Positions 8,659 through 31,470 of a stretch of DNA of 38,330 nucleotides are shown piece after piece. The notes beneath the pieces were generated by a model. That model saw only the letters and a list, made by a program, of their open reading frames with translations. It did no database searches and had not been told where the DNA came from. Source of the DNA: Natrinema versiforme JCM 10478 (lineage in GTDB: Archaea > Halobacteriota > Halobacteria > Halobacteriales > Natrialbaceae); NCBI RefSeq assembly GCF_000337195.1, contig NZ_AOID01000018.1, positions 1 through 38,330 on the forward strand, in the 5' to 3' direction. A program made the translations under genes and the position numbers. Position 1 is the first letter of the stretch. Each line of letters opens with the position of its first letter.

Positions 8659-8802
8659 GGAAACAGCGTCCACAGCCGGACAAGTAAAGACGCAGGGTGC
8701 GTTCGCTGACGATGGGTCGCCGAGCGCCGGTCGGGTTTCGTCGGAGTTGGACTCGAGGCCTTCGAGTATGGGCCACTCGAGTCGACCGTCCTCGAGAGAT
8801 TG

Positions 8803-9048
8803 TCAGCCCCTGATGGTCAGAATGCCGTCGTTGACGATGACATCGGTCGCCCCCGCCGGGACGTCGAACTCGAACTGTTTCTCGCCGACGGTGACGATCG
8901 CCGTCTCGTCGACGACGTCGACCGTCGGCTTCTCGCCGGTGGGACCGAAGTCGACCGCGATGACGCTCTCGTCTTCGTACTCGCGATTGCTGATCGTGAT
9001 CTCGTCCTCGTCGCCGGCCACGTGTCGCAGTTCTGGCGGTGTGTCCAT
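8803..9048 (-). CDS. Small Hsp20-like beta-sandwich protein (haloarchaeal family)
   Basis: 81 residues, strongly acidic: a short N-terminal tail, then EYEDESVIAVDFGP, AIVTVGEKQFEFDVPAG and VIVNDGILTIRG. The last segment, NDGILTI, is the beta-strand pattern that closes alpha-crystallin domains (NGVLTV/I). Similar short, single-domain haloarchaeal proteins are annotated as conserved hypothetical Hsp20-like. It lies between two sugar-catabolic genes on the same strand (gaps 144 and 93 bp), so it may be co-transcribed without taking part in the pathway. Function unknown. Confidence 0.72.
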   Translation of the reverse strand: MDTPPELRHVAGDEDEITISNREYEDESVIAVDFGPTGEKPTVDVVDETAIVTVGEKQFEFDVPAGATDVIVNDGILTIRG

Positions 9049-9141
9049 GGTCGCCCGTTCGTGACTCCCCGCCGTAAACGTCGTGCGCGCGATTGCCCGC
9101 TCGAGACGCGGTGCCCCGGCAGCCGCCGATCCGTTGATACC

Positions 9142-10209: not shown

Positions 10210-10263
10210 TTCCCTGTGAGTCTGGAACTGCCGGGTCGGTTCGGACTGATACACCCATGACCG

Positions 10264-10271
10264 CTATATTG
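10264..10271 (-). promoter_or_regulatory. Probable promoter of the Gfo/Idh gene
   Basis: The minus strand reads CAATATAG, a TATA-like box about 55-62 bp upstream of the ATG at 10209. Transcription would start near 10240, leaving a ~30-nt leader. This suggests the dehydrogenase and the genes after it can be expressed apart from the ABC transporter genes. Confidence 0.45.
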
Positions 10272-10371
10272 AATCCTTTGACTCGAGCAACTTCCGTCCG
10301 TCGCCAAACGAGGCGGCGGGTCGGCGAGTCGACTCGGAGACGGGGACTCGAGTGCCCTCGAGCGAGACGAG

Positions 10372-11559
10372 TTAGCTGTCGGCTTCCGTCGGTGTGGTCC
10401 CGGATTCTCGGTCCGAGAGGTCGGTGATGCCGTGGACTAACGCGTCGCCGGTCGCGGTATCGAAGAGGTGGATCTTCGATCGATCGAGGACGACGTTGAT
10501 CTCTTGGTTCGCCTCGATGTCCGTGTCGGGGGTAACGCTCATCAGCAACTGGTTCGGCGACGTGGCGGGGTCTTGCTCCATCGACCCCGTCGCGGCCTCG
10601 GAGAGTAAGACGTAGACGAAGACCTCGTCGCCCATTGGCTCTAAGACGTCGGTTCGCGCCCCGATCGGGTCCGTCGGCGAGCCGACCGTCTCGGCGAATC
10701 GCGTCAGATGGACGTCCTCGGGTCGAATCCCGAGCGTTACGTCGTCGCCGACCGTCACCCCCGGCACCTGGGTCGGATCGAAGTTCACGGTGAAATTGTT
10801 CGTCTCGAGGCCGTTCTCGACGAGTTGACCCTCGGCGAAGTTCATCGACGGGGAGCCGATGAAGCCGGCGACGAAGAGGTTGGTGGGCTCGTTGTAACAG
10901 GTAAGCGGTGCGGCGATCTGCTGGAGCCGGCCGTCGTTCAACACGGCGATCCGATTGGACATCGTCATCGCTTCGGCCTGATCGTGAGTGACGTAGATGA
11001 CCGTCGCGTCTAGCTCCCGGTGGAGCCGCTGGAGTTCCGTCCGCATGTGGACCCGCAGCTTCGCGTCTAAGTTCGCCAGCGGCTCGTCCATCAGGAACAC
11101 GTCCGGGTTGCGAACGATCGCGCGGGCGATGCCAACTCGCTGTTGCTGGCCGCCGGACATCTCCGCCGGCATCCGGTCTAACATCCCCTCGAGTTGGACG
11201 ATGTCCGCCGCCTGCTCGACGCGGCGTCTGACCTCCTCGTCGTCGTACTTCCGGAGACGGAGCCCGAAGGAGATGTTCTCGTAGACGTCCATGTGCGGGA
11301 ACAGCGCGATGTTCTGGAAGACCATCGCGACGCCCCGGTCTTTGGGTGCGAGAGTCGTCACATCGTCGTCGCCGATGTATATCCGGCCCTCGGTGGGCCG
11401 GGTCAACCCCGCGACCGTCTCCATCGTCGTGGACTTTCCACAGCCCGAGGGGCCGACTAGCGTGACGAACTCGCCGTCCTCGACCTCGAGGCTGATGTCG
11501 TCGACTGCGGTCTCTTCTCCGTAGCGTTTCGTGACGTTTTCGAGTCGTACTCGTGCCAT
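10372..11559 (-). CDS. Sugar ABC transporter ATP-binding protein, MalK/UgpC type
   Basis: 395-residue cytoplasmic ATPase that powers sugar uptake. Motifs: Walker A GPSGCGKST (residues ~36-44), Q-loop FQNIALFPHM, signature MSGGQQQR, Walker B VFLMDEPLANLD and switch His in VTHDQAEAM. After residue ~240 comes a MalK-type regulatory OB/TOBE domain with LGIRPEDVHL. Such ATPases pair with two permeases, here encoded directly upstream with a 6-bp gap. The C-terminal tail is an acidic, Thr/Glu-rich extension. Confidence 0.95.
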   Translation of the reverse strand: MARVRLENVTKRYGEETAVDDISLEVEDGEFVTLVGPSGCGKSTTMETVAGLTRPTEGRIYIGDDDVTTLAPKDRGVAMVFQNIALFPHMDVYENISFGLRLRKYDDEEVRRRVEQAADIVQLEGMLDRMPAEMSGGQQQRVGIARAIVRNPDVFLMDEPLANLDAKLRVHMRTELQRLHRELDATVIYVTHDQAEAMTMSNRIAVLNDGRLQQIAAPLTCYNEPTNLFVAGFIGSPSMNFAEGQLVENGLETNNFTVNFDPTQVPGVTVGDDVTLGIRPEDVHLTRFAETVGSPTDPIGARTDVLEPMGDEVFVYVLLSEAATGSMEQDPATSPNQLLMSVTPDTDIEANQEINVVLDRSKIHLFDTATGDALVHGITDLSDRESGTTPTEADS

Positions 11560-11565
11560 TGTGTG

Positions 11566-12597
11566 TTATTCCTTGAGTGCGCCTGCGGTCAGGCCGCTGA
11601 CGATCTTTTCCTGTGCGATGACCACGAGGATCGCGACGGGGATCACCCCGAGGATGCTCGCGGCGGCCATGAGGTGGTACATCACTTGATACTGCCCCTG
11701 ATAGGCGAGGATGCCGTCGAGGATGGGTGCCCAGTTCTCGGGTTGCCCATCGGTCATCAGGAACGAGAAGAAGAACTCGTTGTAGACGGCGATGAACGTC
11801 AACACGCCCGCGGTCGCGACGCCCGGTGCCGACAGCGGGATGATGACCCGGAACAGCGCGCCCAGCCGGGTCGTCCCCTCGACGCGGGCCGCGTCCTCTA
11901 ACCCGTCCGGAATCTGTGAGTAAAACGTCGTCAGAATGAAGATCGCCAGCGGCATGAAGATAGCCGACAGCGGCGTCACGAGCGCGAAGGGCGTGTTATA
12001 GAGGGTGCCGTCGCCGGTGATCGGCTCGAGGAAGAAAAACGAGGTGTTGAAGAGGTCGTTCAGGGGGATGAAGAAGGCCGCTGGCGGGAAGAAGGAGATG
12101 ACCAGCACTAACAGCATCAGCGGTGTGCGGCCGGGGAAATCGAGGCGGCCGAAGGCGTAGCCCGCGAGGCTGGCGACGACGAGGACGACGACCGTCGAGG
12201 CCAACGCGATCACGAAGCTGTTGAACATGTAGACGTGGAAGGGGATGACCTGAAAGACCTCGACGAACGCGCCCGGATTGAAGCCGTTGGGCGTGAAGAC
12301 GATGTCCTGCAGCTGGCCTTCCGGCGTCAGCGCGACCATCAGAAGCCAGTAGAACGGGAACAGCGTCGTGAACAGGAAGAAGACCGCGGCGACGTAGAAC
12401 ATCGCCCGGTAGACCCGTTCGGGGTTGGAGATGGAGTCGGCGACCCACTGCTGGAACGGCCCGCGGTCGAGTTCCGCGTCGCGGTCGTCCTCGAGGACCG
12501 CGCCGCCGTCGGGGCGGCGGAGCGTCGGATCGCGGGGCGGTTCGGTCTCGGTGTCACCAGCGTCGGTCGGATCGGTGGAGTCTCTGGGATCGCTCAT
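11566..12597 (-). CDS. Sugar ABC transporter permease, MalG type
   Basis: 343-residue inner-membrane permease. A ~55-residue hydrophilic, Asp/Pro-rich N-terminus is followed by six hydrophobic helices, the first AMFYVAAVFFLFTTLFPFYW. The EAA loop that contacts the ATPase is DGLEDAARVEGTTRLGALF..IPLSAPG. The ATG at 12597 overlaps the stop of the preceding permease by one base (TGATG), showing translational coupling. The frame stays open upstream to 13167 inside the other permease gene, but that part is not coding. Confidence 0.93.
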   Translation of the reverse strand: MSDPRDSTDPTDAGDTETEPPRDPTLRRPDGGAVLEDDRDAELDRGPFQQWVADSISNPERVYRAMFYVAAVFFLFTTLFPFYWLLMVALTPEGQLQDIVFTPNGFNPGAFVEVFQVIPFHVYMFNSFVIALASTVVVLVVASLAGYAFGRLDFPGRTPLMLLVLVISFFPPAAFFIPLNDLFNTSFFFLEPITGDGTLYNTPFALVTPLSAIFMPLAIFILTTFYSQIPDGLEDAARVEGTTRLGALFRVIIPLSAPGVATAGVLTFIAVYNEFFFSFLMTDGQPENWAPILDGILAYQGQYQVMYHLMAAASILGVIPVAILVVIAQEKIVSGLTAGALKE

Positions 12598-13634
12598 CAG
12601 TACATTCCTCCGTCGGTGTCGCGGAACAGGACCACGTAGCCGCCGATTATCAGGCCGATCACGAGCGCCGTCGCGAACGCCACGGCGGCGGCCGTCGCGT
12701 AGATGCGCGTGCCGCCGAACATCGCCTCGACGACGAGGCAGGTCAGCGACGGTACGGTCGTACAGCCCGCGGTCGACTCGATCAGTCCGAACACCCGCAT
12801 CGCGTCCATCGTTCGGAACAGCATCGCGACCAGCAGGGCCGGCATCACGAGCGGGAGCGTGATCAGTTTGAACCGCTGCCACGGCGAGGCCCCGGCCACG
12901 CGCGCGACGTCGTACAGGCTCCGGTCGACGCTCTGGAGCCCCGCGAGGATCAGCAGGGCCATGAACGCCGACGATTTCCAGATGTCGGCCACGAGGATGA
13001 TGATGAAGGCGTCCCGGCTGTTCGCGAGCGGCGTCCCGCTGAAGATCCCGAGGCTCTGCATGAGGTCGGAGCCGAACCCGACCGTCGGCTGGAACAGCAG
13101 GAAGAAGATCATCCCCTGAATCACGATCGGGACCGCCCACGGGAGGATGATCGCCACGCGGACCCACCGCCGCCCCCGGAAGTCCTGATCGAGCACGTAG
13201 GCCTGCCCGAACCCGATCACCGTCTCCACGACGACGCTGATGACCGCGAACGCGAGCGTGACGAACAGCGCCTGCTGGAAGAACGGCGTCCCGAGTTCGA
13301 TGAAGGGGAACGACGAAGTCAGGCCCACGTCGAGGAACTGCCGGGCCAGCCGGGCGTTCCCGGTGAGGATGTCGACGTAGTTTTCGACGCCGACGAACTG
13401 CCCGAGCGGCTCCAGTCCGCGGGTCTGGTCGGCTCGCAACGACATGACGAACGTCCGGAGCAGCGGGTAGAACGCGATCAGTGCCAGCAGGACGAACGCG
13501 GGGAGCAACAGGAGGTAGGCGTACGCCGCCTCGCTCAGGTTCTCCATCCAGTTGATAACGGCGTTGCCGGTCCGATCTCGATCCGTCCCGGACTCGCCGC
13601 CGGCCAATCCGTCCGTCTCGGTATCAGTTGCCAT
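12597..13634 (-). CDS. Sugar ABC transporter permease, MalF/UgpA type
   Basis: 345-residue inner-membrane permease. After a ~30-residue acidic N-terminus the first helix is AYLLLLPAFVLLALIAFYPL; a large extracytoplasmic segment (VGVENYVDILTGN) follows, then five more helices. The EAA motif is SLYDVARVAGASPWQRFKLI..LPLVMP. Its start overlaps the end of the binding-protein gene by 11 bp and its stop overlaps the next permease, so the three genes form a tight operon. Confidence 0.93.
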   Translation of the reverse strand: MATDTETDGLAGGESGTDRDRTGNAVINWMENLSEAAYAYLLLLPAFVLLALIAFYPLLRTFVMSLRADQTRGLEPLGQFVGVENYVDILTGNARLARQFLDVGLTSSFPFIELGTPFFQQALFVTLAFAVISVVVETVIGFGQAYVLDQDFRGRRWVRVAIILPWAVPIVIQGMIFFLLFQPTVGFGSDLMQSLGIFSGTPLANSRDAFIIILVADIWKSSAFMALLILAGLQSVDRSLYDVARVAGASPWQRFKLITLPLVMPALLVAMLFRTMDAMRVFGLIESTAGCTTVPSLTCLVVEAMFGGTRIYATAAAVAFATALVIGLIIGGYVVLFRDTDGGMY

Positions 13635-15090
13635 TGTCTCCCACCTCCGATTCGCTTTGCTCGAGTTCCGTTGCGAGGTCGTTCATCGCCCCCGCGGGCG
13701 ATTTCGCACCGCGGTACGCCGCGTTAACCTCCTGGTAGATCAGCGCCGACTGTTCCGGCCAGAGGTCCGTCGCCGGCCGCGGAACCGCGTTCTCGCTGGC
13801 CGATTGGACCACGTCGCCGTACCGAGCGACGGGCCCGACGTCGTCCGTGCTGGCCTCCTCGACGAGATCGAGGTTCGGCGGGAGGAAGCCTCCCAGTTCG
13901 AAGACGGTGAGCATGACCTCCTCGCTCGCGAACGCCTCGAGGACCTGGATCGCCTCCTCCTGTCGGTCCGAGAAGGGGCTCACCACGAGGTTCCACCCGC
14001 CGAGCGCCGCGACGGTGCCGCCGGTACCCTCGTACTCGGCCTCCTCCGCTGAGGTCGCGTACGGCCGCGTCATCACGCCGAGATTCTCGCCGAAGGCGTC
14101 CTCCGTGCCCGTCTCCGCGATGGCGTACGACCAGTTGCGGTTCGAGACGGCGTTGCCGTCCGCGAACGGACTGAGCGACTCCTGTTCGGTCCACTGCACG
14201 ATCGGCGACGGACAGATCTGGGGATAGCCCTCGAGGGTGTTCTCCTCCTCGCCCTCGATGAACGACCGCATCATCCGGATCGCGTCGATAACCCGCTGAT
14301 CGTCGACGGTGATCGGCCGTTCGCCGGCGGTAAACAGGTTCTCGGTCCCGCCGAAGTAGGCCCCACCCCACGAGGTCATCACCTCGTTGAACGTACAGCA
14401 GGACAACCCCTCGTAGGCGGCCGCTTGCGTCGTGAGCCCGTAGTTGAGTCCGACCTGGTCTCTCGCGTCGCGGATCGCCGACGCGAACTCCTCCCAGCGC
14501 GGCGGATCGGTCCCCCAACCGCTCGTGTCGTAGCCAGCGTCCTCGATGAGATCCTGCCGGTAGAGGGTAAACCCGAGGTCCGGGAACAGGGGCAGGCCGT
14601 GGAGATCCCCGCTCTGGGGATCGCGCGCCGTCTCGAGGATCGCCTCCATGTAGTTGTCGGTGACGTACCCGAGCGTGTCCTCGGAGAAGCGTTCGGTCAG
14701 GTTGACCGTCTGGTTCCGGAGGATAAACGGCACCGTCCAGCCGCTGTCCATCATGTGGATGTCCGGCGGTGAGCGACCCGCCTCGAGCGCCGACTGGGTG
14801 GTCTGCATCCGAGACGCGGAGTCGCTGACGACGGTTTGGATCTCGACGCGAATATCCTCGTCGAGGCCGGCGTCCCAGAGCGCCTGCTGGACCGAGGCAT
14901 CGTCGCCGTCGCTGTACATGATCGCCTGGACGTCCGTGGCAGCGGTCATCACGACGGTCCCCGGTTCGCGACCCCGACCGAGACAGCCGGTGACGGCGAC
15001 CGCTCCCGCTGTCGACGCCGAGGCAGCTTTCAGGAACGACCGCCGTCTGAGACGGGAGCGGTCGCGTCGGCCGGCGGTATCGCGTTCCAT
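13624..15090 (-). CDS. Sugar ABC transporter solute-binding lipoprotein (Tat-exported)
   Basis: 488 residues. The N-terminus has the twin-arginine motif in RRRSFLKAASASTAG and a lipobox VTGC, so the protein is exported folded and lipid-anchored outside the membrane. The body fits family 1 extracellular binding proteins (GRSPPDIHMMDSGW, LPLFPDLGFTLYRQDLIEDAGYD, WEEFASAIRDAR). The substrate is likely a sugar, given the TrmB regulator and the MalK-type ATPase; which sugar cannot be told. ATG at 15090 rather than the frame's upstream codon at 15099, because the TATA box at 15130-15135 is correctly placed for a short leader. Confidence 0.93.
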   Translation of the reverse strand: MERDTAGRRDRSRLRRRSFLKAASASTAGAVAVTGCLGRGREPGTVVMTAATDVQAIMYSDGDDASVQQALWDAGLDEDIRVEIQTVVSDSASRMQTTQSALEAGRSPPDIHMMDSGWTVPFILRNQTVNLTERFSEDTLGYVTDNYMEAILETARDPQSGDLHGLPLFPDLGFTLYRQDLIEDAGYDTSGWGTDPPRWEEFASAIRDARDQVGLNYGLTTQAAAYEGLSCCTFNEVMTSWGGAYFGGTENLFTAGERPITVDDQRVIDAIRMMRSFIEGEEENTLEGYPQICPSPIVQWTEQESLSPFADGNAVSNRNWSYAIAETGTEDAFGENLGVMTRPYATSAEEAEYEGTGGTVAALGGWNLVVSPFSDRQEEAIQVLEAFASEEVMLTVFELGGFLPPNLDLVEEASTDDVGPVARYGDVVQSASENAVPRPATDLWPEQSALIYQEVNAAYRGAKSPAGAMNDLATELEQSESEVGDNGN

Positions 15091-15129
15091 GCGCGGCAAC
15101 GGACCACGTTCTCCGCCTTAATTGTTAGC

Positions 15130-19319: not shown

Positions 19320-20558
19320 ATGGTAAACCGGCCGTCGTTCGATCGCCGCGCCGTGCTCCGTGGCGTCGGCGGTGCAGCGGCGTCGGGAGTCGCTGCGCTG
19401 GCCGGCTGTCTCGGCGGCGGCGACGAAATAGAAGGGGCCGAGCCGTGGCAAACCGACGAACTCGCCGAGGTTCCCGCGGAGGAACACCCGGCGCTCTACG
19501 AGCCGTCGGAGACCGAACGCGATTCGTCCGAAACACTCGCTCATCTCACCTGGACAGGATACGATGCGGAGAACGTCCAGGGGCCGTTTCGCGAGCAGTT
19601 CAACGCCAATACGAATATCGACCTGTTTACCGACAACGCGCAGGCGTTCAACCGCCTGCAGTCGGGTGAATGGCGGCAGTTCGAACAGTGTACGTTCGAT
19701 ATGGCGTGGGTCCCCCGCCTCGCCGAAGCCGAACTGATCCGTCCGATCGATTACGAGAGCTGGAAACCGTACACGTTCGATCAGTATATCGACCTCTTCC
19801 AGCCCGAGAACGGCTACAAGTACGCGTTCGTCAACGAGGACGATTACACCTTCGACGCCGACGGGACGCTATACACGTTCCCCCAACGGTTCGGCTGGGC
19901 GTCGTTCGCGGTGAACACGGATACCGTCGCGGAGTCCGACTACCAGTCCTACGACATCGCGTGGTCCGACCAGTACGACGTCGGGATCTACGATCTGATG
20001 TTCTGGGGAATTCAGGTCATCATGCTCCGCGAAGGGATCGACCCGTTCAAAGAACACACCGACGAGGAAATCGAACAGGTCAGGCAGGCGACCTTCGACC
20101 TCTTCGATAACGCGTCGACCCTCCTGACGGACTTCGCCTCGATGAATCAGGCGCTGACCTCCGGCGAAATCGATATCGGATTCATCAGCGGGAACTGGAT
20201 CAACGGCTCGCTCCGTCGAGACGGCAATTACGAATTCGAGGCCGTCGTTCCCGACGAAGGCTCGATCATCTGGGTCGAATCGACGTCGTTCGTCAAGGGC
20301 CCCCAGCCGAACGTCTCGGACAACTACATGGCCTACATGATGCGGGGCGAAAATGCCCTGGAACTGTCCTGGCCGGACTCGGGCGGGACGAACGTCGTCC
20401 CCCACCAGACCGCGTGGGACAATTACAACGACGAACAGCGTCGCGTCCTCCGGATCGACGAGATCGAGGACATCATCGAACAATCGGTGTTCTACGAAGG
20501 CGTTCCCGACCTCGAGAAGTTCGAACCGATCTGGCGCGAAGCGAAGACGAGGATGTGA
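19320..20558 (+). CDS. Spermidine/putrescine-type ABC solute-binding lipoprotein
   Basis: 412 residues. N-terminus with twin-arginine motif DRRAVLRGVGGAAA and lipobox LAGC, so Tat-exported and lipid-anchored. The body resembles PotD-like extracellular binding proteins (LTWTGYDAENVQGPFREQFN, then FDMAWVPRLAEAELIRPIDY, YTFPQRFGWASFAVNTDTV and GEIDIGFISGNWINGS). PotD-like proteins bind amines through Trp/Tyr and Asp/Glu; this one is rich in Trp, Tyr and acidic residues. Encoded next to ethanolamine ammonia-lyase genes, it may bind ethanolamine or a related amine rather than spermidine; that is inference from context. Confidence 0.88.
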   Translation: MVNRPSFDRRAVLRGVGGAAASGVAALAGCLGGGDEIEGAEPWQTDELAEVPAEEHPALYEPSETERDSSETLAHLTWTGYDAENVQGPFREQFNANTNIDLFTDNAQAFNRLQSGEWRQFEQCTFDMAWVPRLAEAELIRPIDYESWKPYTFDQYIDLFQPENGYKYAFVNEDDYTFDADGTLYTFPQRFGWASFAVNTDTVAESDYQSYDIAWSDQYDVGIYDLMFWGIQVIMLREGIDPFKEHTDEEIEQVRQATFDLFDNASTLLTDFASMNQALTSGEIDIGFISGNWINGSLRRDGNYEFEAVVPDEGSIIWVESTSFVKGPQPNVSDNYMAYMMRGENALELSWPDSGGTNVVPHQTAWDNYNDEQRRVLRIDEIEDIIEQSVFYEGVPDLEKFEPIWREAKTRM

Positions 20559-20610: not shown

Positions 20611-21687
20611 ATGCTTAAAGCTGCTAACTTACGAAAGGAGTACGGATCGAACGTCGCCGTCGAAGACGTCGAGTTCGAGATCGAATCGGGATCGTTCGCG
20701 ACGATCGTCGGCCCCAGCGGGTGTGGCAAATCGACCCTCCTCAGAATGCTCGCCGGCCATCTGTCGCCGACGGCGGGGCGGATCGAACTCGACGGAATCG
20801 ACATCACCGACTCCCCGCCACAGCGTCGACCGACGAGTCTCGTGTTCCAGTCGTGGTCGCTGTTCCCGCACATGACCGTCGCGGAAAACATCGAGTTTCC
20901 GATCGAAGCGCGGGACCTGGAACCGAACGGGCAGGTCGAGCGACTGCTCGAGCAGGTTCGACTCGATCCCGAGGAGTACGCCGACAAGCCGGTGAGCGAT
21001 CTCAGCGGCGGACAGAAACAACGCGTCGCGCTCGCGCGGTCGCTCGCGTACGAGCCCGACATCCTGTTACTCGACGAACCGCTCGCATCGCTCGATTACG
21101 TGCTGCAAAAGAAACTCCAGCGCGAACTAACCGAGCTCAACGCCGAGTTGAACACGACGTTCGTCTACGTGACTCACTCGCTCGAGTCGGCGTTGATCAT
21201 GAGCGATCAACTGTTCGTCATCGACGACGGGTCCGTCATTCAGCGTGGCAGCCCGGACGAGATCTATCAGGAGCCGGTCGACACGTTCGTCGCGGAGTTC
21301 ATGGGCGACGCGAACGTGTTTCCGATCGATGTCGTCGAGCGAACCGACGACGCGGTTCGTCTCGACCACCACGCACTCGAGGGGACGCGGGAATTCCCGT
21401 ACGGGCCTGCCGACCGGCCTGATCCGGAGTATCTGGTCGTCCGTCACGACGACACCGTCGTCACCCCCGCACTCGAGACCGAGATCGGGATTCCCGTGAC
21501 CATCGCAAACGTTCTCAACAAGGGGAACACGGCGCTGGTCGAGGCGAAGGGGACACGCGACGACGAGGAGTACGTCTCGGAAATATCGCTCGATCGGGTT
21601 TCGGAGATCGGTTTGACGGACGGCGACGAGGCGTACTTACAGTGGGACCCAGAGAAAACGCACGTGCTTCCCGGGGGCGGCTCCTGA
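20611..21687 (+). CDS. ABC transporter ATP-binding protein, PotA type
   Basis: 358 residues. Walker A GPSGCGKST (residues ~34-42), Q-loop FQSWSLFPHM, signature LSGGQKQR, Walker B ILLLDEPLASLD, switch His in YVTHSLESAL, then a C-terminal TOBE domain (residues ~240-350). It energises the importer with the two downstream permeases; its stop overlaps the next start (TGATG at 21685-21689). 52 bp separate it from the binding-protein gene. Confidence 0.93.
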   Translation: MLKAANLRKEYGSNVAVEDVEFEIESGSFATIVGPSGCGKSTLLRMLAGHLSPTAGRIELDGIDITDSPPQRRPTSLVFQSWSLFPHMTVAENIEFPIEARDLEPNGQVERLLEQVRLDPEEYADKPVSDLSGGQKQRVALARSLAYEPDILLLDEPLASLDYVLQKKLQRELTELNAELNTTFVYVTHSLESALIMSDQLFVIDDGSVIQRGSPDEIYQEPVDTFVAEFMGDANVFPIDVVERTDDAVRLDHHALEGTREFPYGPADRPDPEYLVVRHDDTVVTPALETEIGIPVTIANVLNKGNTALVEAKGTRDDEEYVSEISLDRVSEIGLTDGDEAYLQWDPEKTHVLPGGGS

Positions 21688-22631
21688 TGTCGGTCCGGGA
21701 ATTCGTTCGCTCGAAGGTCCCGGCGGCTATCGACCGGCCCGGTCGCCGGCTCGCGTCGGCCTCTCCGTTGGGCCCGCCCGGCGGGCTCATGCTTCCGCTG
21801 CTCGCGCTGTTGGCGTTCATGTTCGTGGGTCCGATCGTCGCGATCGTTCTGTTCTCGGTACAGACCGAGAACGTGATTTCGCTTTCCGTGGCCGACTGGA
21901 CGCTCGAGGCCTACCGGGAGATCGTACAGGGCACGCTCAGCGGCGAGGGTGTCTACGGGGAGGTGACGCTCAACACGATCGTTATCAGTGCGCTGACGAC
22001 GGTCGTCGCGTTCGTCGTTTCCTATCCCGCCGCCTACGCGCTCGCGACGAAAGTTCGCCGGTTCAAACTCCCCATACTGATCGCGCTCATCATTCCGCTC
22101 TTTACGAGCGTCAACATTCGCGTCTACGGCTGGGTGCTGTTCTTGATCAACGACGGCGTTTTCGACCTCCTCGCCGGGAGCGTCGGATTGAACGCCCCGT
22201 CGATCATCTACACCCGTAGCGCCGTCGTTCTCGGAACGGTGTACGTCTACCTTCCCTACATGCTGTTTCCGATCTACCTCTCGATCAGCACGATCGACGA
22301 GTCGCTCCTCGAAGCGGCGTCGGACCTCGGAGCCGGACGGACGAAACAGTTCGTCGATGTCATCCTCCCGCTGTCGAAACCGGGGGTCATCATCGGCTCG
22401 CTGTTCGTATTCGTCCTGAGCCTCGGGGCGGAGGTCGAAGCCGAACTGCTCGGCGGGGGAACGATCTACACCGCGGCGAGTAACATCAGCTACTCGTTTG
22501 GCTACTCACAGAACTGGCCGCTCGGCTCGGCACAAGCCGTCGGCCTGTTGCTCATCACGACGGTCTGTGGCGTCGTAATCCTGCGGACGATCGACCTGAC
22601 CGAAATCGCTTCACGAGGTGGGTCCAGATGA
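21687..22631 (+). CDS. ABC transporter permease, PotB type
   Basis: 314 residues with six membrane helices, the first at about 37-58 (LALLAFMFVGPIVAIVLFSV). The EAA loop is LLEAASDLGAGRTKQF..LPLSKPG. It has the PotB-like start and order. Start at 21687 overlaps the ATPase stop by one base; its stop overlaps the next permease by four bases (ATGA). Confidence 0.93.
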   Translation: MSVREFVRSKVPAAIDRPGRRLASASPLGPPGGLMLPLLALLAFMFVGPIVAIVLFSVQTENVISLSVADWTLEAYREIVQGTLSGEGVYGEVTLNTIVISALTTVVAFVVSYPAAYALATKVRRFKLPILIALIIPLFTSVNIRVYGWVLFLINDGVFDLLAGSVGLNAPSIIYTRSAVVLGTVYVYLPYMLFPIYLSISTIDESLLEAASDLGAGRTKQFVDVILPLSKPGVIIGSLFVFVLSLGAEVEAELLGGGTIYTAASNISYSFGYSQNWPLGSAQAVGLLLITTVCGVVILRTIDLTEIASRGGSR

Positions 22632-23431
22632 GCGCGCGATCGAACCGCTCGCGGCTCCCCCGCATTTCGACCGGGCTCTGGTACGGCTACCTCGCACTCA
22701 TCATCGCGTTCCTGATGACGCCGTTGCTCAGCCTCATCATCGCGTCGTTCGATAGCGGCCAGACCTTCTCGTTGCCGTTCGAGTTCACGCTCGAGTGGTA
22801 CCGCAACGCGCTGACGTCGACCAGCGTCCAGTCCGCCGTCGACTCGACGATCCGAATCTCGGTTCCGGTGACGATTCTCAGCACCGTTATCGGCACGGCG
22901 GGGGCGATCGCGTACACGCGGTATTCGTTCCCCGGTCGGGAGTACTTCAAGATCGTCGCGCTCCTGCCGATCTTCTTCCCGTTGATCCTGCTCGGACTCG
23001 GGATGTCGATGTGGGCGAGCGTGACCGGCCTCGGCTACGGTATCGTGCCGGCGATCGTCGGTGAAACCGTCTGGATCTCACCGATCGTCATGTTCGTCGT
23101 CTCGATCAGTGCACTCGGCGTCGATCCGAACCTCGAGGAGGCGGCCCGCGATCTCGGTGCCGACACGCTCACGATCTACAAAGACGTGCTGTTACCGCTG
23201 ATCGCGAACGGAATCGTCTCGGGCGGCATCTTCGCGTTCGTCCTCTCGTGGAACAACTACTACATCGTCTCGTATCTCAAGGGGTCGGAGATCACCATCA
23301 CGACGTGGATTCACGGGCGAATGACACAGGGCTTTACGCCGGTCGTTCCGGCGCTCGCCTCGATGATCTTCTACGTGTCGCTTCTCTTGCTCCTCGTCGC
23401 GGTCGTTATGGAGTTGCGATCCGAGACGTAG
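22628..23431 (+). CDS. ABC transporter permease, PotC type
   Basis: 267 residues, six membrane helices, the first GYLALIIAFLMTPLLSLIIA. The central EAA motif reads LEEAARDLGADTLTIYKDVLLPL. PotC-like features include FSLPFEFTLEWYRNAL after the first helix. Last gene of the importer operon; the gap to the regulator gene is 172 bp. Confidence 0.93.
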   Translation: MSARSNRSRLPRISTGLWYGYLALIIAFLMTPLLSLIIASFDSGQTFSLPFEFTLEWYRNALTSTSVQSAVDSTIRISVPVTILSTVIGTAGAIAYTRYSFPGREYFKIVALLPIFFPLILLGLGMSMWASVTGLGYGIVPAIVGETVWISPIVMFVVSISALGVDPNLEEAARDLGADTLTIYKDVLLPLIANGIVSGGIFAFVLSWNNYYIVSYLKGSEITITTWIHGRMTQGFTPVVPALASMIFYVSLLLLLVAVVMELRSET

Positions 23432-23603: not shown

Positions 23604-24350
23604 GTGCTCGAATACACGTTTTACATACGACACGACGGCTGCTGGACCGAGACGATAAACGAGTCGTTTCCGGATGTCACGGCGACGATCATCTACTCCT
23701 ACCGGTTACTCGGGAGCAGTATCACGATGATCGAACTCAACAACGTTCGGGAATCGGTGATCGACGAACTCGTCGCGTGGCTCGGCGATCATCCGGTGAT
23801 GACGACGGCGCAACTGCTCCAATACGACGAGGCGAGTGAAAACGCGTACGTCTCGCTCGTCGGCGAGTACGACGACGACGCCGAACCGGTCCTGAACGTC
23901 CTCCTTCGAAACCGGTGTTTCCCGACCGTTCCGGCGACCGTTGCGGACGGGCAGGAACACTGGAGCGTGATCGTCCCGACGAACGAAGCGGTGAGCCAAG
24001 CCCACGACGAACTCCGGGGTCTCGGCTCGATCACGGTCGATTCCCTCGGCGCGCCCGAACTCGACGGGCTACTCACCGGGCTGACCGATATCAAGCAGGC
24101 CGTCCAGAGCCTTTCCCCCCGACAGCGAGAGGTCCTCGCTCGAGCGATCGAACACGGCTATTACGACTCCCCACGAGCCTGTAGTATCGAAACGCTCGCC
24201 GAGACGGACTCGGCGAACACGTCGACCGTCGGGAAACACCTCCGTCGGTCCGAAGCGAAGATACTCGAGGCGGTGTTACCTCTGTTGACCGACGCCGGCC
24301 CGACTACCGGAGACACCGCGACCGACGAGTACGCCCCATCTCATACCTGA
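23604..24350 (+). CDS. HTH-10 (Bat-type) transcriptional regulator
   Basis: 248 residues. The C-terminal ~60 residues, LSPRQREVLARAIEHGYYDS, then LAETDSANTSTVGKHLRRSE, form the HTH-10 domain of the bacterio-opsin-activator family, a haloarchaeal group of one-component regulators. The N-terminal ~170 residues are a sensor-like alpha/beta domain (LEYTFYIRHDGCWTETI) of unknown ligand. GTG at 23604 is used; no upstream ATG in frame. It lies between the importer operon and the eut genes and ends 6 bp from the end of the convergent glnA-like gene, so it is the likely local regulator of one or both. Confidence 0.85.
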   Translation: MLEYTFYIRHDGCWTETINESFPDVTATIIYSYRLLGSSITMIELNNVRESVIDELVAWLGDHPVMTTAQLLQYDEASENAYVSLVGEYDDDAEPVLNVLLRNRCFPTVPATVADGQEHWSVIVPTNEAVSQAHDELRGLGSITVDSLGAPELDGLLTGLTDIKQAVQSLSPRQREVLARAIEHGYYDSPRACSIETLAETDSANTSTVGKHLRRSEAKILEAVLPLLTDAGPTTGDTATDEYAPSHT

Positions 24351-24356: not shown

Positions 24357-25694
24357 TCAGAACGCGTCGAGATACGTTTCGCGTTCCCACTCGGAGACAG
24401 CGCCCTGATATCTGTCGAACTCGTCCCGCTTTATCGAGACGAACGAGTCGACGAGAGGTTCGCCCAGTTCGCGGGCCAAGATGTCGTCGTCCTCGAGGTG
24501 GTCGAGTGCGGCCCACAACGTTCGCGGGAGCCGTTCGTGATCCTCTTGTGAGGCGTTTCCCGTCGTCGGTGCGGGCGGCTCGCGCTGGGTTTCGATACCG
24601 TCGTGCCCGGCGGCGAGAACGGCAGCGAGCGCGAGATACGGATTACACGACGTATCGGGGAGGCGGAACTCGAGACGAGTGGCGGGGCCCAGATGCGGGG
24701 GCACGCGGAGCACGGTCGATCGGTTGTCCGGCCCCCACGCGATCGAAACCGGTGCCCACGAACCGGGTCGCAAGCGCCGATAGGAGTTGACCGTCGGCGC
24801 ACAGACGGCGGTAAGCGCGTTCGAATGCGCGAGGAGCCCGCCGATGGCGTGTCGTGCAACCGTCGAAATCCCACCGCCGGCTGGCCGCGTTCCCGACGGG
24901 AACTCGAGCTCGGTCGTCTCGGCCGCGAACGCGTTCGTCTCGAGCGTATCGTCCCACAGGCTCAGGTGAACGTGTAGTCCGTTGGCGTCCGCTCCCGTAT
25001 AGGGGGCCGGCATCATCGAGGCCTTCAGCCCGTGCTGACTGGACACCGACGTGAGCATGTGCCGGAAGAACGCGACCCCGTCGGCGACTTCGACCGGATC
25101 ACCGTGCTCGAAGGTGACCTCGTACTGGCCGGGCTGGGACTCTTGATGGACACACGTCACCTCGAACCCGGCGGCCCCCATCGCCTCGGACCAGTCCTCG
25201 ATCAGGTCCGCCGCCTGATCGAGCGCGTCCATCGCGTACGAGCTTCGGTCGTTGAACGGTTCGTAGCCGCCGTCATCGGTCGGACGAAGCAACGAAAATT
25301 CGAGTTCGATCCCGACCTGTGGAACGTATCCGGTCGCTTCGAGCGTGTCGATCACGCGGCCGAGAGCGCTGCGGCTACAGAGATCGAACGCGGTTCCATC
25401 GACACGCGTGAGATCGGCAAACGCCAGGCCGACTCCCTCGCGCCACGCGACCGGTATCGGTGGCTCCGAGTCCGGGACAGCGACAATATCCCCGCTCTCG
25501 GGACCGTACGATGGATCTTCGAGAAGCCCTTGCTCGAGCGTCAACTCCGCGACCCCCGCTGCGAATCCGAACCCGTCCTCGCGTTGCCGTTCGAAGTTCG
25601 ATGCGGGAACGACGTTTCCGCGGGCGATGCCGTTCAGATCGGTCCACAGCACTCGTACCCGGTCGTACTCGCTCGCTGCGCGGTTCGAACCCAT
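24357..25694 (-). CDS. Glutamine-synthetase-family gamma-glutamyl-amine ligase (GlnA4/PuuA-like)
   Basis: 445 residues of the class I GS fold: beta-grasp start VRVLWTDLNGIARGNVVP, metal-site EIEF equivalent VGIELEFSLL, SQPGQYEVTFEHGDP, NGLHVHLSLWDD (metal/ammonium region), VNSYRRLRPGSWAPV, WGPDNRSTVLRVP and RLEFRLPDTSCNPYLALAA. The start and the WTDLxGxxRG signature match GlnA-like enzymes that glutamylate amines rather than ammonia. In Streptomyces, GlnA4 makes gamma-glutamyl-ethanolamide; PuuA makes gamma-glutamyl-putrescine. Given eutABC next door on the same strand, ethanolamine is the best guess; true glutamine synthesis is less likely because the adenylylation-Tyr region is absent. It is 93 bp after eutA. 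Confidence 0.87.
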   Translation of the reverse strand: MGSNRAASEYDRVRVLWTDLNGIARGNVVPASNFERQREDGFGFAAGVAELTLEQGLLEDPSYGPESGDIVAVPDSEPPIPVAWREGVGLAFADLTRVDGTAFDLCSRSALGRVIDTLEATGYVPQVGIELEFSLLRPTDDGGYEPFNDRSSYAMDALDQAADLIEDWSEAMGAAGFEVTCVHQESQPGQYEVTFEHGDPVEVADGVAFFRHMLTSVSSQHGLKASMMPAPYTGADANGLHVHLSLWDDTLETNAFAAETTELEFPSGTRPAGGGISTVARHAIGGLLAHSNALTAVCAPTVNSYRRLRPGSWAPVSIAWGPDNRSTVLRVPPHLGPATRLEFRLPDTSCNPYLALAAVLAAGHDGIETQREPPAPTTGNASQEDHERLPRTLWAALDHLEDDDILARELGEPLVDSFVSIKRDEFDRYQGAVSEWERETYLDAF

Positions 25695-25787: not shown

Positions 25788-27227
25788 TCATTCGTCAAAT
25801 ACGAGCGTCTTGATCGTTACCGGAACGGCGGCGTTTTCCGCGACCGGCGTTCCGAGATCCACGTACTCGTCTTCGGTAACCGCGAGTTCGTCGAGGACCA
25901 TCACCGGTCCGGCGTTGGTCATCGACTCGAGCAGTTGGCCGAGTACTTTCGCGCAGTTCTGTTCAGTCAGCAGTATCACCGGCCGCGGTTCGTCGGATCG
26001 GGCGTCACAGGCGGCGGCGATCCCGCGTGCGACGAGTCGGAGCCGATCGTAGGTCAGTGGTCCGACGTTCGACGCGTACAGGGCGGCCGTCCCGGTGATA
26101 TCGCGACGATTCCGGGCGGCACGAATCGCCGCTGCCGTTCGCGCTCGCACGGCGTCGACGGAGTCGGCCGTCTCGAGTCCCTCGAGGGCGATGACTGGGA
26201 GGTTCCTGGCCGGTAACAACTCGGCCGCCGGGGCGATCGTTCGACCGGTAAACGTCGTCGTCCGCGTTCCGGCACCGATGACGGTTGCGCGGATGTCTTC
26301 GGCCGACCGCCGGACCGGCAACGCGTCGAAGCGCTCGTGGGCTCGAATCGCGGTGGCGAGGGAGACGCCGAGATCGCCGAACTCGAGGGGATCGCGGTCG
26401 TCGATATCGAGATCCGAAACCAGACGGCCGACGCCGCCGGTAAACACGACTTCGTCGATATCGACCGCGTTCTCGGGCGGATCGGTGATCGCCAGCGCCC
26501 GCGTCGCCTCGTCGAACGGCGGTCCCTCGACGGCGTCGAAGACCCGATCGGCCAGTTCCCGTGCGAGCGCCTGCCGGTCCGCTTCCGGACGTTTCGTCCC
26601 GACCTCGATCGGGGGACAGTCCGGCGGATGACAGCGCCTGACCGGCTCCGCGACCGCTCGGACGACACCGTCGTCGTCGAACCGGACGAGTCGACCGCCG
26701 ATGTCGAGACACCGCGTCTGCAGCACCTCGCCGTCTTCGAACACGGCGATATTCGTGGTTCCGCCGCCGATGTCGACCGTTACGATCGTCGAGCCATCGG
26801 TACCGCTTCGGGCCCCGGCACCGGACCCGTAGCCGGCCAATACCGCCTCGAGCGACGCGCCGGCCGTCGCGACGACGAACTCGCCGGTGTGCTCGGCCAA
26901 CCGGGTTACCAACGCCTCGGCGTTGTCTTTCCGTGCCGCCTCGCCGGTCGCGATGACCGCGCCGGTATCGACTTCCGTCGCCGTCAGCCCCGCGTCCTGC
27001 ACGTCGGTATCGATGAGTTCGCCGACGGCGGCGGTGTCGATTTCACGGTCGCCGGCGAACGGCGTCTCGCGGATCGGGCTCCGGTAGCGGACCCGGCGCT
27101 CGAGGACGTCGACGCTCGCCGCACCGTTGTACGCGGGGGCAGAGAGGGTGAGATCGCTGATGATCACCTGGGTTGTCGTGGTGCCGATATCGATGCCGAT
27201 GCTGGTCAATGTCTCGGTACCTGGCAT
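25788..27227 (-). CDS. eutA: Ethanolamine ammonia-lyase reactivating factor EutA
   Basis: 479 residues, actin/Hsp70-like ATPase fold: IGIDIGTTTTQVIISD at the N-terminus, then VTVDIGGGTTNIAVFEDGE (second phosphate loop), VVFTGGVGRLV (adenosine motif) and ATVIGAGTRTTTFTGRTI. EutA exchanges inactivated cobalamin from ethanolamine ammonia-lyase for fresh adenosylcobalamin using ATP. Length is close to the bacterial ~470. Encoded after eutC with a 20-bp gap on the same strand, so it belongs to the eutBCA transcript. Confidence 0.93.
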   Translation of the reverse strand: MPGTETLTSIGIDIGTTTTQVIISDLTLSAPAYNGAASVDVLERRVRYRSPIRETPFAGDREIDTAAVGELIDTDVQDAGLTATEVDTGAVIATGEAARKDNAEALVTRLAEHTGEFVVATAGASLEAVLAGYGSGAGARSGTDGSTIVTVDIGGGTTNIAVFEDGEVLQTRCLDIGGRLVRFDDDGVVRAVAEPVRRCHPPDCPPIEVGTKRPEADRQALARELADRVFDAVEGPPFDEATRALAITDPPENAVDIDEVVFTGGVGRLVSDLDIDDRDPLEFGDLGVSLATAIRAHERFDALPVRRSAEDIRATVIGAGTRTTTFTGRTIAPAAELLPARNLPVIALEGLETADSVDAVRARTAAAIRAARNRRDITGTAALYASNVGPLTYDRLRLVARGIAAACDARSDEPRPVILLTEQNCAKVLGQLLESMTNAGPVMVLDELAVTEDEYVDLGTPVAENAAVPVTIKTLVFDE

Positions 27228-27247: not shown

Positions 27248-27994
27248 TCACGGGTCCCCCGTATCGCATCCGTTGCGTTCGGCCTCGCACAGTTCTTCGA
27301 GGACCGCCGCGATCTCGGCCCCGGCCTCGACGGGCGGGATACCGTTGCGATGAATGTTCGAAATGACCGACTTCTCGGACGTCGCGCCGCCCCGTTCCGG
27401 ATCGGCGACGAAGTACGCGCTCAGGCTCTCGTTCGTCGCCAGTCCGGGCCGTTCGCCGACGAGATTGACACAGCAATCCGCACCGAGTTCCGCGCCGATC
27501 GCGTCCATCACATCGACTCGGCCGTATTCTACGAAAATCGGAGTCCCGACATCGAGTCCCCGGTCGGCCAGTCCGTCGCGTAACACCGGCAGCAACTCGG
27601 GGACGTTTGTCTCGACTGCGGTCGAACTGAGCCCGTCACTGACCACGATCTGTACCTGTGGTTCCATCGCGCAGTCCTCCCGGATCCGTTCGGCCGTCTC
27701 CTCCGAGATATCACGTCCCCGGCTCGGTTCCGCGAGGAACTCCGTCTTGCTTTCGGCTCGCGATCGGACGCTCACGAGGTCGAGGTCCGCCACGAGGTCG
27801 TCCGAAACGTGCGTGGTGACGGCATCGCGAGCTTTCGCGTGGTCGAGTCGAAACTCGAGGAGCGTCTCCGTCCGCGGCCGCGATCCCGCCCGGCCGACGC
27901 CGATTCGAGACGGGTGGGAGTCGCGGAACCGCTCGAGTCGGGGTTCGTCTTCCGGGTCTTCGACGCCGCTCCTCCGGTCGTTGTTCGGTCTCAT
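27248..27994 (-). CDS. eutC: Ethanolamine ammonia-lyase small subunit EutC
   Basis: 248 residues; bacterial EutC is often ~290, the shortening being at the N-terminus, which is usually poorly conserved. Conserved blocks: TETLLEFRLDHAKARDAV, VQIVVSDGLSSTAVETNVPE, VFVEYGRVDVMD equivalent (IFVEYGRVDVMDAIGAELGA), VNLVGERPGLATNESLSAY and KSVISNIHRNGIPPVEAG. With EutB it builds the adenosylcobalamin-dependent lyase. The ATG at 27994 overlaps the eutB stop (ATGA), so the two subunits are translationally coupled. Confidence 0.92.
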   Translation of the reverse strand: MRPNNDRRSGVEDPEDEPRLERFRDSHPSRIGVGRAGSRPRTETLLEFRLDHAKARDAVTTHVSDDLVADLDLVSVRSRAESKTEFLAEPSRGRDISEETAERIREDCAMEPQVQIVVSDGLSSTAVETNVPELLPVLRDGLADRGLDVGTPIFVEYGRVDVMDAIGAELGADCCVNLVGERPGLATNESLSAYFVADPERGGATSEKSVISNIHRNGIPPVEAGAEIAAVLEELCEAERNGCDTGDP

Positions 27995-29373
27995 GGCTGG
28001 GTGAATATCGTCGGATCGCCCGCGCGCTCGGTCAAGCGCCCGTCGTCGGTGATCCCCATCTCCTCGAGCCACGCCTCGAACTCGGGTGCCGCTTGCAGCC
28101 CGAACAGGGACCGGAGGGTGGGTCCGTCGTGGTAGCTGTTGGACTGATAGTTGAGCATCACGTCGTCGCCCATCGGCACCGTGATGAAGAAGTTCGCACC
28201 GGCGGCGGTCAGCAACACGGCGAGGTTCTCGATGTCGTTTTGATCGGCCTTCGTGTGGTTCGTATAGCAGGCGTCGATTCCCATCGGCAGCCCGTGGAGT
28301 TTGCCCATGAACACGTCTTCCAGTCCCGCGCGAATGACCTGCTTGCCGTCGTAGAGGTACTCCGGCCCGATGAAGCCGACCACGGTGTTGACGAGGAACG
28401 GATCGTACTCGCGGGCCAGCCCGTAACACCGGGCCTCCAGCGTGAGTTGATCGACGCCTTCGTGCGCGTCGTTCGAAAGCTCCGCGCCTTGCCCGGTCTC
28501 GAAGTACATGACGTTCGGTCCGTCCCCGCGACAGAGATTCCGGCCCAACTCGGCAGCGTCGTCGAGTAGCTCGACATCGATACCGAACTCTCGGTTCCCC
28601 CGCTCGGTGCCAGCGATGCTCTGGAAGAGCAAGTCGGCCGGCGCGCCGTTTCGAACCGCGTCCATCTGGGTCGTGATGTGTCCGAGGACGCAGTTCTGGG
28701 TCGGGACGTCCCACCGATCGATGAACTCGGCCGTCGCTTGCAGGATCTCTTTGACCTGTGCCGCGTCGTCGCTCACCGGATTGATGCCGATAACGGCGTC
28801 CCCGACGCCGTAGGACAGTCCCTCGCGAACACTCTGTAGGATATTCTCCGTCTCGTCGGCCGGATCGTTGGGCTGAAGCCGGAACGAAACGGTCCCCTCC
28901 GTTCCAATCGTACTGTTACAGCGCGCGACGACGGTCATCTTGGCAGCGGCGACCACGAGATCCAGGTTCGACATGAGCTTCGTGACGGCCGCGATCATCT
29001 CGCTCGTCAGCCCCTCCCTGAGCGCCCGGATAGCTTCGTCGTCCGTCGACTCCGCGAGGAGGAACTCCCGGAGATCGGCGACGGTCCAATCGGCGATTTC
29101 CGCGTACGTTTCTTCGCAGACGCCGTCCCGGATCGTCCGCGTAACCTCGTCTTCGTCCGCGGGGACGACGGGATTCTCGTACAACGTCTCGAGGGTCAGT
29201 CGACTGACGATGTCTTTCGCCGCGATACGCTCCGCGCTCGAGGACGCCGCGAGTCCCGCCAGTTCGTCTCCCGACTTCCGCTCGTTCGCCTTGGCCAGAA
29301 CGCTCCGGATCGAGTCGAACTCGTGTTCGATTCCGTCGATCGTCGCCGTGTACCCGGTCTCTTTGCTACCCAT
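27991..29373 (-). CDS. eutB: Ethanolamine ammonia-lyase large subunit EutB
   Basis: 460 residues, co-linear over the full length with bacterial EutB (453). It splits ethanolamine to acetaldehyde and ammonia with adenosylcobalamin. Landmarks: IRSVLAKANERKSGDELAGL, IAAKDIVSRLTL, GLTSEMIAAVTKLMSN, FRLQPNDPADETENI, SYGVGDAVIGINPV, YFETGQGAELSN, LVNTVVGFIGPEYLYDGKQV, ACYTNHTKADQNDIENL, GDDVMLNYQSNSYHD and the tail GRLTERAGDP. These include the barrel-strand Glu and Asp of the substrate pocket. A GGAG Shine-Dalgarno-like stretch lies ~8 bases before the ATG. First gene of the minus-strand eut transcript. Confidence 0.96.
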   Translation of the reverse strand: MGSKETGYTATIDGIEHEFDSIRSVLAKANERKSGDELAGLAASSSAERIAAKDIVSRLTLETLYENPVVPADEDEVTRTIRDGVCEETYAEIADWTVADLREFLLAESTDDEAIRALREGLTSEMIAAVTKLMSNLDLVVAAAKMTVVARCNSTIGTEGTVSFRLQPNDPADETENILQSVREGLSYGVGDAVIGINPVSDDAAQVKEILQATAEFIDRWDVPTQNCVLGHITTQMDAVRNGAPADLLFQSIAGTERGNREFGIDVELLDDAAELGRNLCRGDGPNVMYFETGQGAELSNDAHEGVDQLTLEARCYGLAREYDPFLVNTVVGFIGPEYLYDGKQVIRAGLEDVFMGKLHGLPMGIDACYTNHTKADQNDIENLAVLLTAAGANFFITVPMGDDVMLNYQSNSYHDGPTLRSLFGLQAAPEFEAWLEEMGITDDGRLTERAGDPTIFTQP

Positions 29374-30152: not shown

Positions 30153-31364
30153 TTATTTTTCGAGCGTGCGTCGCGTCGCAGTCACACCGGAACCCGGATC
30201 GACAGCCGCGCCCATCGACTCGAGGACGTCGCCCAGTGCCGTCACCACGTAGATGACGTTCTCGGGGCGCGCGGAGTGGCCCATACAGCCGATTCGGAAG
30301 ATCTCGCCGGCGAGATCGCCCAGCCCGCCGGCGATCTCGAGGTCGTACTGTTCGATCAGGGCATCACAGACCGCGCCGTCGTCGATGCCGTCGGGGACGC
30401 GGACGGCGTTGAGACTCGGCAGCCAGTACTCGTCGGGGGCGTTCATCTCGAGACCCATCGCCTCCATGCCGGCTTTCAGCGCGCCGGCCAGCCGTTCGTG
30501 GCGCGCCCAGCGCTCTTCGATTCCTTCCTCTGCGACCAGTCGCAGGGCCTCCCGAATCGCGTAGACGTTCGTGATCGGTGCAGTGTGGTGGTAGGCCCGT
30601 TCGTCGCCCCAGTAGCCCTCGAGCAGGGAGAGGTCGAGATACCACGAGCGGGGGTCTTCCTCGCGCGAGAGGACCTTGTCCATCGCCTCGTCCGACAGCG
30701 TGAGGGGACTGGCCCCTGGCGGACAGGAGAGACACTTCTGCGGGCCGGAGTAGGCCACGTCGATGTCCCACTCGTCGACTCGCAACTCCACGCCGCCCAG
30801 CGAGGTGACGGTGTCGGCGATGACCAGGGCGTCGTGGTCGTGGGCCGCGGCGGTGAGCTCTGGCACGTCGGGCTGGAGAACGCCCGTGCTCGTCTCGGCG
30901 TGGACGAACCCGAAGACGTCGGGGTCGTGTTCGGCCAGCGCGTCCGCGACGTCGTCGGGCTCGAGCGGTTCGCCCCACGGTGCATCGACCTCGACGACCT
31001 CGCCGCCCGCGCGTTCGGCCATCGAGGCCATCCGGCCGCCGAAGTAGCCGTTCGTCGGCACGAGCATCGTATCACCGGGTTCGACGACGTTCCCGATCGC
31101 GGCCTCCATCGCCGCCGAGCCGGTCCCCGAGACGGGGATCGTCCACTGGTTGTCCGTTCGGAACGTGTACCGCAGCAACTCCTGGACCTCGTCCATGATC
31201 TCGATGAACGAGGGATCGAGATGCCCGACGAGCGGCGTGCTCATCGCCCGGAGCACGCGCGGGTTCACGTCGCTCGGTCCGGGCCCCATCAGGGTTCGGT
31301 CCGGCGGAGTGAGTTCGCCAACGGATGGCGCGCGAGCCGCCTCGTTCGGCGCTTCCTGAGCCAT
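30153..31364 (-). CDS. Alanine-glyoxylate/serine-pyruvate-type aminotransferase (class V)
   Basis: 403 residues, PLP-dependent fold type I. It begins with LMGPGPSDVNPRVL, a family hallmark, followed by SGTGSAAMEAAIGN (phosphate-binding loop), FVHAETSTGVLQP, VIADTVTSLGG (PLP-pyridine Asp) and YSGPQKCLSCPPG, where the Lys forms the Schiff base. It likely moves amino groups between alanine or serine and glyoxylate/pyruvate. ATG at 31364 rather than the open frame to 31454. It is divergent from the DUF457-like gene. Confidence 0.92.
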   Translation of the reverse strand: MAQEAPNEAARAPSVGELTPPDRTLMGPGPSDVNPRVLRAMSTPLVGHLDPSFIEIMDEVQELLRYTFRTDNQWTIPVSGTGSAAMEAAIGNVVEPGDTMLVPTNGYFGGRMASMAERAGGEVVEVDAPWGEPLEPDDVADALAEHDPDVFGFVHAETSTGVLQPDVPELTAAAHDHDALVIADTVTSLGGVELRVDEWDIDVAYSGPQKCLSCPPGASPLTLSDEAMDKVLSREEDPRSWYLDLSLLEGYWGDERAYHHTAPITNVYAIREALRLVAEEGIEERWARHERLAGALKAGMEAMGLEMNAPDEYWLPSLNAVRVPDGIDDGAVCDALIEQYDLEIAGGLGDLAGEIFRIGCMGHSARPENVIYVVTALGDVLESMGAAVDPGSGVTATRRTLEK

Positions 31365-31470
31365 GGGCGTGTGCTCGAGTGCCACTCGCAAAGACCTACC
31401 GGCAGCGGCGAAGTATCGATCCGCGACCGACTCGACAGGGTGTGTTTCTCTCACACGATCCGGCGATCAG

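Follow-up and report, generated by a model that had tools for sequence, protein, structure and literature searches.

A glutamine synthetase-like ligase, probably for ethanolamine, in a haloarchaeal gene module with two interchangeable catabolic arms

Introduction

GlnA4 of Streptomyces coelicolor is a gamma-glutamylethanolamide synthetase (PMC6529630). Together with PauA7, it has been published as having lost residues of the ammonium site of glutamine synthetase (GS), a loss of the same kind as that described below. An operon for the gamma-glutamylation of ethanolamine is found in Phaeobacter, Chromohalobacter and Agrobacterium, where the amine is converted to glycine by way of gamma-glutamylethanolamide, gamma-glutamylacetaldehyde-amide and gamma-glutamylglycine (PMC10132767). 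Both the enzyme classes and the logic of the pathway are already known in bacteria, while no haloarchaeal description of either this route or the EutBC route was found in the open-licence literature searched. Here, we compare with these systems a locus that a haloarchaeal genome (G000) carries on a single contig of 38.3 kb, the whole of which is referred to as the window.

Results

The first-pass annotation of the window had proposed that a GS-like ligase, encoded in line with eutABC and beginning as amine glutamylases do, could provide a second entry route for ethanolamine. The gene lies where it had been placed (Table 1), its reading frame opens with ATG, and the product, which matches Pfam Gln-synt_C at 2e-98, contains each of the motifs that had been quoted, namely WTDLNGIARG at residue 17, VNSYRRLRPG at residue 302, WGPDNRST at residue 320 and FRLPDTSCNPYLALAA at residue 343. 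The N-terminal block is indeed of the form seen in E. coli PuuA (LTDLNGCFRG) and unlike that of E. coli GlnA (RFTDTKGKEQ). The predicted fold, from a model of moderate quality, resembles those of an archaeal GS (TM about 0.8) and of GmaS.

Table 1. Features of the ethanolamine locus in the window
Feature	Coordinates	Strand	Basis
Importer substrate-binding lipoprotein (proposed ethanolamine-binding protein)	19320..20558	+	69-81% identity across both locus groups
ABC importer ATPase, PotA-like	20611..21687	+	ABC_tran; PotA-type models below cut-off
ABC importer permease 1, PotB-like	21642..22631 (start may be 21789)	+	BPD_transp_1; PotB model 2e-45, below cut-off
ABC importer permease 2, PotC-like	22628..23431	+	BPD_transp_1; PotC model 5e-33, below cut-off
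Proposed module regulator with HTH_10 (bacterio-opsin-activator type), convergent with the ligase gene	23604..24350	+	Pfam HTH_10 1.3e-13; ligase neighbour in 21/22 loci
GS-like amine gamma-glutamyl ligase (proposed gamma-glutamylethanolamide synthetase)	24357..25694	-	445 aa; Pfam Gln-synt_C, active-site replacements, clade 100/100, dN/dS
EutA, reactivating factor of ethanolamine ammonia-lyase	25788..27227	-	Pfam EutA 7e-129
EutC, ethanolamine ammonia-lyase small subunit	27248..27994	-	Pfam EutC 4e-75; NCBIfam NF003971 above cut-off
EutB, ethanolamine ammonia-lyase large subunit	27991..29373	-	Pfam EutB 4e-208; NCBIfam NF011649 above cut-off
Class V aminotransferase adjoining EutB, possible accessory	30153..31385 (longer start at 31454 also possible)	-	Aminotran_5; 97% ortholog in G305

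The ligase gene shares its strand with eutB, eutC and eutA and follows the last of them after 93 nt, while the PotABCD-like importer genes precede the HTH_10 regulator. EutA, EutB and EutC all pass the Pfam gathering scores, and EutB and EutC pass their NCBIfam cut-offs as well. The in-line arrangement of the ligase with eutABC holds for the window, for the congener G305 and for Natronorubrum thiooxidans; in the other four loci where the ligase accompanies EutBCA (hereafter EutBCA-linked loci), it adjoins the cluster beyond the regulator and not downstream of eutA.

The importer binding protein has weak similarity to Pfam SBP_bac_6 and to PotD, matches no Pfam family above its cut-off and finds only a marginal PotD match in a PDB profile search; its AlphaFold model (pLDDT 33) is too poor for use. 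No other protein of the module is as strongly conserved as this binding protein, which has 94% identity to its N. thiooxidans counterpart and a dN/dS of 0.03. The nearest models to the aminotransferase next to eutB are pyridoxamine-pyruvate transaminase and BhcA, both below cut-off; its G305 ortholog occupies the same position, and a relative adjoins EutB in one further locus (L090). Elsewhere in the window, the region 7690-15099 on the minus strand is likely a sugar or polyol catabolic cluster. As read from the translations, it encodes a sugar isomerase/epimerase-like protein (7690-8673), then a Gfo/Idh-type oxidoreductase (9142-10254) and, at 10372-15099, a second ABC importer, of carbohydrate type.

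The class of the ligase was assessed from its active site. In the alignment with E. coli GlnA, the ammonium-site residues D50, S53, Y179 and E327 correspond to A45, V48, S152 and W313, respectively, and all four positions are replaced in each of the 21 clade sequences compared. On the other hand, the metal and ATP ligands and most of the glutamate ligands are retained (E129, E131, E212, E220, H269, H271, R321, R339, R344, E357 and R359). The exceptions are G265 and N264, both of which help to bind glutamate in GS and which are A237 and D236 in the ligase; therefore, glutamate is the likely rather than the certain co-substrate. None of the curated GS-family models run on the protein reaches its cut-off: the scores are 278 against 429 bits for type I GS (TIGR00653, GlnA), 331 against 650 bits for gamma-glutamylputrescine synthetase (NF045547, PuuA) and 333 against 470 bits for type III GS/GmaS (TIGR03105). 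With its metal, ATP and glutamate ligands kept and its ammonium site gone, the protein falls within the broad class of GS-fold glutamate-amine ligases, and it lacks D50, Y179 and E327, with which type I GS binds and deprotonates ammonium.

A maximum-likelihood tree, whose references did not include S. coelicolor GlnA4 or the Chromohalobacter ligase, places the protein within a 21-member haloarchaeal clade (support 100/100). This clade is on the side of PuuA and other haloarchaeal GS-like paralogs, away from both GlnA and the GmaS branch, so that the grouping with true GlnA that would have spoken against an amine ligase is not found. Since the ammonium-site residues are replaced throughout the clade and the tree position is distant from GlnA, the evidence supports a predicted GS-like amine gamma-glutamyl ligase rather than an ammonia-using glutamine synthetase, as the first-pass annotation had suggested. 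An ordinary glutamine synthetase recapturing the ammonia released by EutBC would agree with the GS fold and with the location in a eut cluster, but besides the lost residues and the low GlnA score, the genome already encodes two further GS-family proteins that group with real GS in the tree, and orthologs of the ligase also occur without EutBC. We consider the chance of this explanation to be close to negligible.

Members of the clade were found in 17 of 391 haloarchaeal genomes drawn class-wide, and a scan of named genomes added others, including that of N. thiooxidans (80% identity). In this second scan, identity to the window ligase drops sharply from 53% to 38%, and the GS-like paralogs outside the clade are at 40% or less.

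The gene context of the ligase was compared in 22 haloarchaeal loci, whose contents were read mainly from similarity to named clusters and some of whose contigs stop near the locus. In 21 of them the ligase adjoins an HTH_10 regulator, whichever arm or importer is present, and most have a PotABCD-like ABC importer, the place of which is taken by an amino-acid-permease-type transporter near the ligase in Natrialba taiwanensis and Haladaptatus salinisoli. Fifteen loci carry what we call the dehydrogenase arm, in which an iron alcohol dehydrogenase is accompanied by an aldehyde dehydrogenase and, in most cases, by an M81 metallopeptidase. All three partners are found in 13 of these, so that the ligase stands together with both dehydrogenases and a candidate hydrolase in relatives of the window organism; one locus (G162) has no M81, and one contig (L109) shows the alcohol dehydrogenase only. 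The remaining seven loci carry the EutBCA arm: the window genome, G305, N. thiooxidans, Haloarcula salina (G184), G187, Halobellus sp. Atlit-31R and Natrialba taiwanensis. Both arms were never found in one locus among the 22. The importer binding protein of the window is similar to those of both kinds of loci (Table 1), with the ligase itself at a lower 53-63%.

Genes for glycine cleavage (GcvT, GcvH, GcvPA or GcvPB) are present in 7 of the 15 dehydrogenase-arm loci and a threonine/serine dehydratase in 5, as would be expected if this arm ends in glycine. The sole NCBIfam match of the M81 metallopeptidase is the microcystinase MlrC, far below cut-off. Outside the haloarchaea, the bacterial loci of the genome scan (from L113 on) have mostly GmaS-like neighbourhoods without sets of the two dehydrogenases and M81; a plasmid search with the iron alcohol dehydrogenase for a bacterial reference of the pathway was dominated by 1,3-propanediol dehydrogenases; and the PuuA-like plasmid loci examined lie among oxidase, transaminase or transporter genes and in no case beside an alcohol dehydrogenase arm. 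As a separate observation, several of the haloarchaeal loci with EutB only (L085, L087, L088, L092, L094 and L095) have a nearby aldehyde ferredoxin oxidoreductase and thiolase, which could handle the acetaldehyde from EutBC.

EutBC acts on ethanolamine, and PotABCD-like importers are more familiar as carriers of polyamines. Because the orthologs of the ligase adjoin either EutBCA or the set of alcohol dehydrogenase, aldehyde dehydrogenase and metallopeptidase, ethanolamine is the best candidate for the substrate. Gene linkage to both arms thus makes the substrate named in the first-pass annotation probable, and the most likely product is gamma-glutamylethanolamide. Alternatively, the ligase could act on another amine entering by the same importer, for instance putrescine, the substrate of PuuA and of the haloarchaeal GlnA-2 (PMC8394153). 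The PotABCD-like character of the importer would suit such a role, and the ligase has matches to the GGputSyn and type III models, albeit below cut-off in each case. Nevertheless, the orthologs adjoin an alcohol dehydrogenase and not an amine oxidase or transaminase, the linkage to glycine-cleavage genes and EutBCA fits ethanolamine, and in the tree the ligase clade is distinct from both PuuA and the closest GS-like paralogs of haloarchaea; we hold another substrate to be unlikely.

A further proposal was that the B12-dependent and a B12-independent route operate side by side, allowing the amine to be used when cobalamin is short. The window organism would then run two complete ethanolamine routes, EutBC and one starting at the ligase. 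Both entry enzymes are co-encoded, the ligase is intact, and unrelated aldehyde dehydrogenases and GATase-fold hydrolases of the genome might stand in for the later enzymes; a Peptidase_C26 search for a substitute hydrolase was uninformative, as it picks up general GATase domains in all genomes. Against this, a direct search of six distinct EutBCA-linked genomes at 1e-5 found no M81 (controls 3/3 positive), the window genome gave no match at that threshold, and G305 gave none at 1e-60. Close M81 orthologs (70% or more) were present in 10 of the 391 genomes, all 10 with the ligase and the two dehydrogenases, and in none of the 6 EutBCA-linked genomes of that sample. By Fisher test, the link of M81 to the ligase has p = 1e-15 and that to the arm p = 6e-4, values made optimistic by the relatedness of the genomes. 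As for the dehydrogenases, true orthologs are at 70% or more, whereas the best matches in the window genome are 44% for the aldehyde dehydrogenase and 41% for the iron alcohol dehydrogenase, and those in EutBCA-linked genomes do not exceed 48% and 41%, respectively. Because no M81 was found, the dehydrogenases are distant and the arms exclude each other across the 22 loci, two routes in the window organism are a distinctly improbable reading. A second complete route is probably missing, though distant substitute enzymes are conceivable, and the use of the amine under cobalamin shortage finds no support, the later glutamylation enzymes having no close counterpart in the window genome.

Lack of these later enzymes could mean that the EutBCA-linked ligase is a remnant of a lost glutamylation route, without any function today. 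Fewer alignment columns are indeed invariant in the EutBCA-linked ligases (150 across 6 sequences, compared with 191 across 15). On the other hand, the catalytic residues are all kept, seven loci still carry the gene, and dN/dS is 0.11-0.16 between the window and N. thiooxidans (at a dS near 0.7-1.0) and 0.08-0.22 for a Haloarcula pair. These ratios indicate purifying selection and therefore maintenance of the ligase in EutBCA-linked loci, and a functionless remnant seems quite unlikely.

Finally, we considered the history of the arms. In the tree of importer and regulator, a single clade of EutBCA-linked loci is rejected (AU p 4e-10): the window and N. thiooxidans fall with some dehydrogenase-arm loci, the Haloarcula and Halobellus loci with others. 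The EutB proteins of the linked loci form two lineages in their own tree. The ligase tree rejects the grouping of the importer (p 0.003) and leaves it undecided whether the EutBCA-linked lineages are one clade or several. Since the importer and regulator tree rejects a single EutBCA-linked clade, the module has exchanged its catabolic arm more than once.

Discussion

We consider it probable that the ligase is an ethanolamine ligase belonging to a haloarchaeal module with two interchangeable arms, and that in the window it has a side role beside EutBC. The module would comprise the ligase and the HTH_10 regulator, usually with the PotABCD-like importer, joined to one arm or the other. In the order of steps that we infer, the GS-fold ligase would use ATP to convert ethanolamine into gamma-glutamylethanolamide, which the iron-dependent alcohol dehydrogenase and the aldehyde dehydrogenase would turn into gamma-glutamylacetaldehyde-amide and then gamma-glutamylglycine; the M81 metallopeptidase would release glutamate and glycine from the latter, the whole arm working without B12. 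EutBCA, the B12-dependent ammonia-lyase, would be the alternative arm. In the window form, EutBC would deaminate the bulk of the ethanolamine, and the product of the ligase would serve as a trap, a store or an inducer.

What this side role might be is suggested by the adjacency of ligase and regulator, which is independent of arm and importer, and by the selection acting on the ligase where the later enzymes of its route are absent. In EutBCA-linked genomes, gamma-glutamylethanolamide could be an inducer read by the HTH_10 regulator, or a store that does not leak and is slowly hydrolysed. We regard this as possible, with somewhat less than an even chance: the adjacency may reflect shared regulation alone, and the regulator has no known ligand. 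More tentatively still, the EutBCA-linked ligase may have lost its catabolic route and be kept for its product, a signal or retained pool by means of which the regulator would govern the importer and EutBCA. If so, the entry enzyme of one pathway would have turned into the sensor arm of a rival pathway.

Taken together, the loci predict an archaeal route from ethanolamine to glycine, a PotABCD-like ethanolamine importer and an M81 metallopeptidase that acts as gamma-glutamylglycine hydrolase. They also present a case of two unrelated catabolic arms that take each other's place on a shared module for uptake and regulation. In addition, they would correct the likely annotation of the ligase as "glutamine synthetase". 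Within the open literature searched, what would be new is the archaeal occurrence, the ABC importer, an M81 enzyme at the hydrolase position and the exchange of one arm for the other.

Several known systems resemble parts of the module. S. coelicolor GlnA4 (PMC6529630) is likewise a GS-like protein that has lost D50, Y179 and E327, with the same substrate and product as proposed here; it belongs to a bacterial system, and the likeness lies in its published description. GlnA-2 of Haloferax mediterranei, a glutamate-putrescine ligase (PMC8394153), is also haloarchaeal and GS-like, without D50 and E327 and with Y179 replaced, but differs in gene context and in the substrate proposed. GmaS and type III GS share the fold and a tryptophan at the E327 position and are the nearest bacterial sequences by search, yet the ligase is on a separate branch of the tree and scores below their model.

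The loci of the relatives share with the bacterial glutamylation operon (PMC10132767) a ligase, two dehydrogenases, a slot for gamma-glutamylglycine hydrolysis and a transporter. In the bacterial operon the last two are a gamma-glutamylglycine amidohydrolase and the TRAP transporter EtoX, whereas haloarchaeal loci have the M81 metallopeptidase and the PotABCD-like importer; the window itself lacks all the later enzymes of the route. Compared with the short eut operons (EutBC with a permease, or EutABC), EutA, EutB and EutC of the window are all canonical; the eutBC-eat operons of Actinobacteria and Proteobacteria have no GS-like ligase (PMC6529630), unlike the window, where one directly follows eutA.
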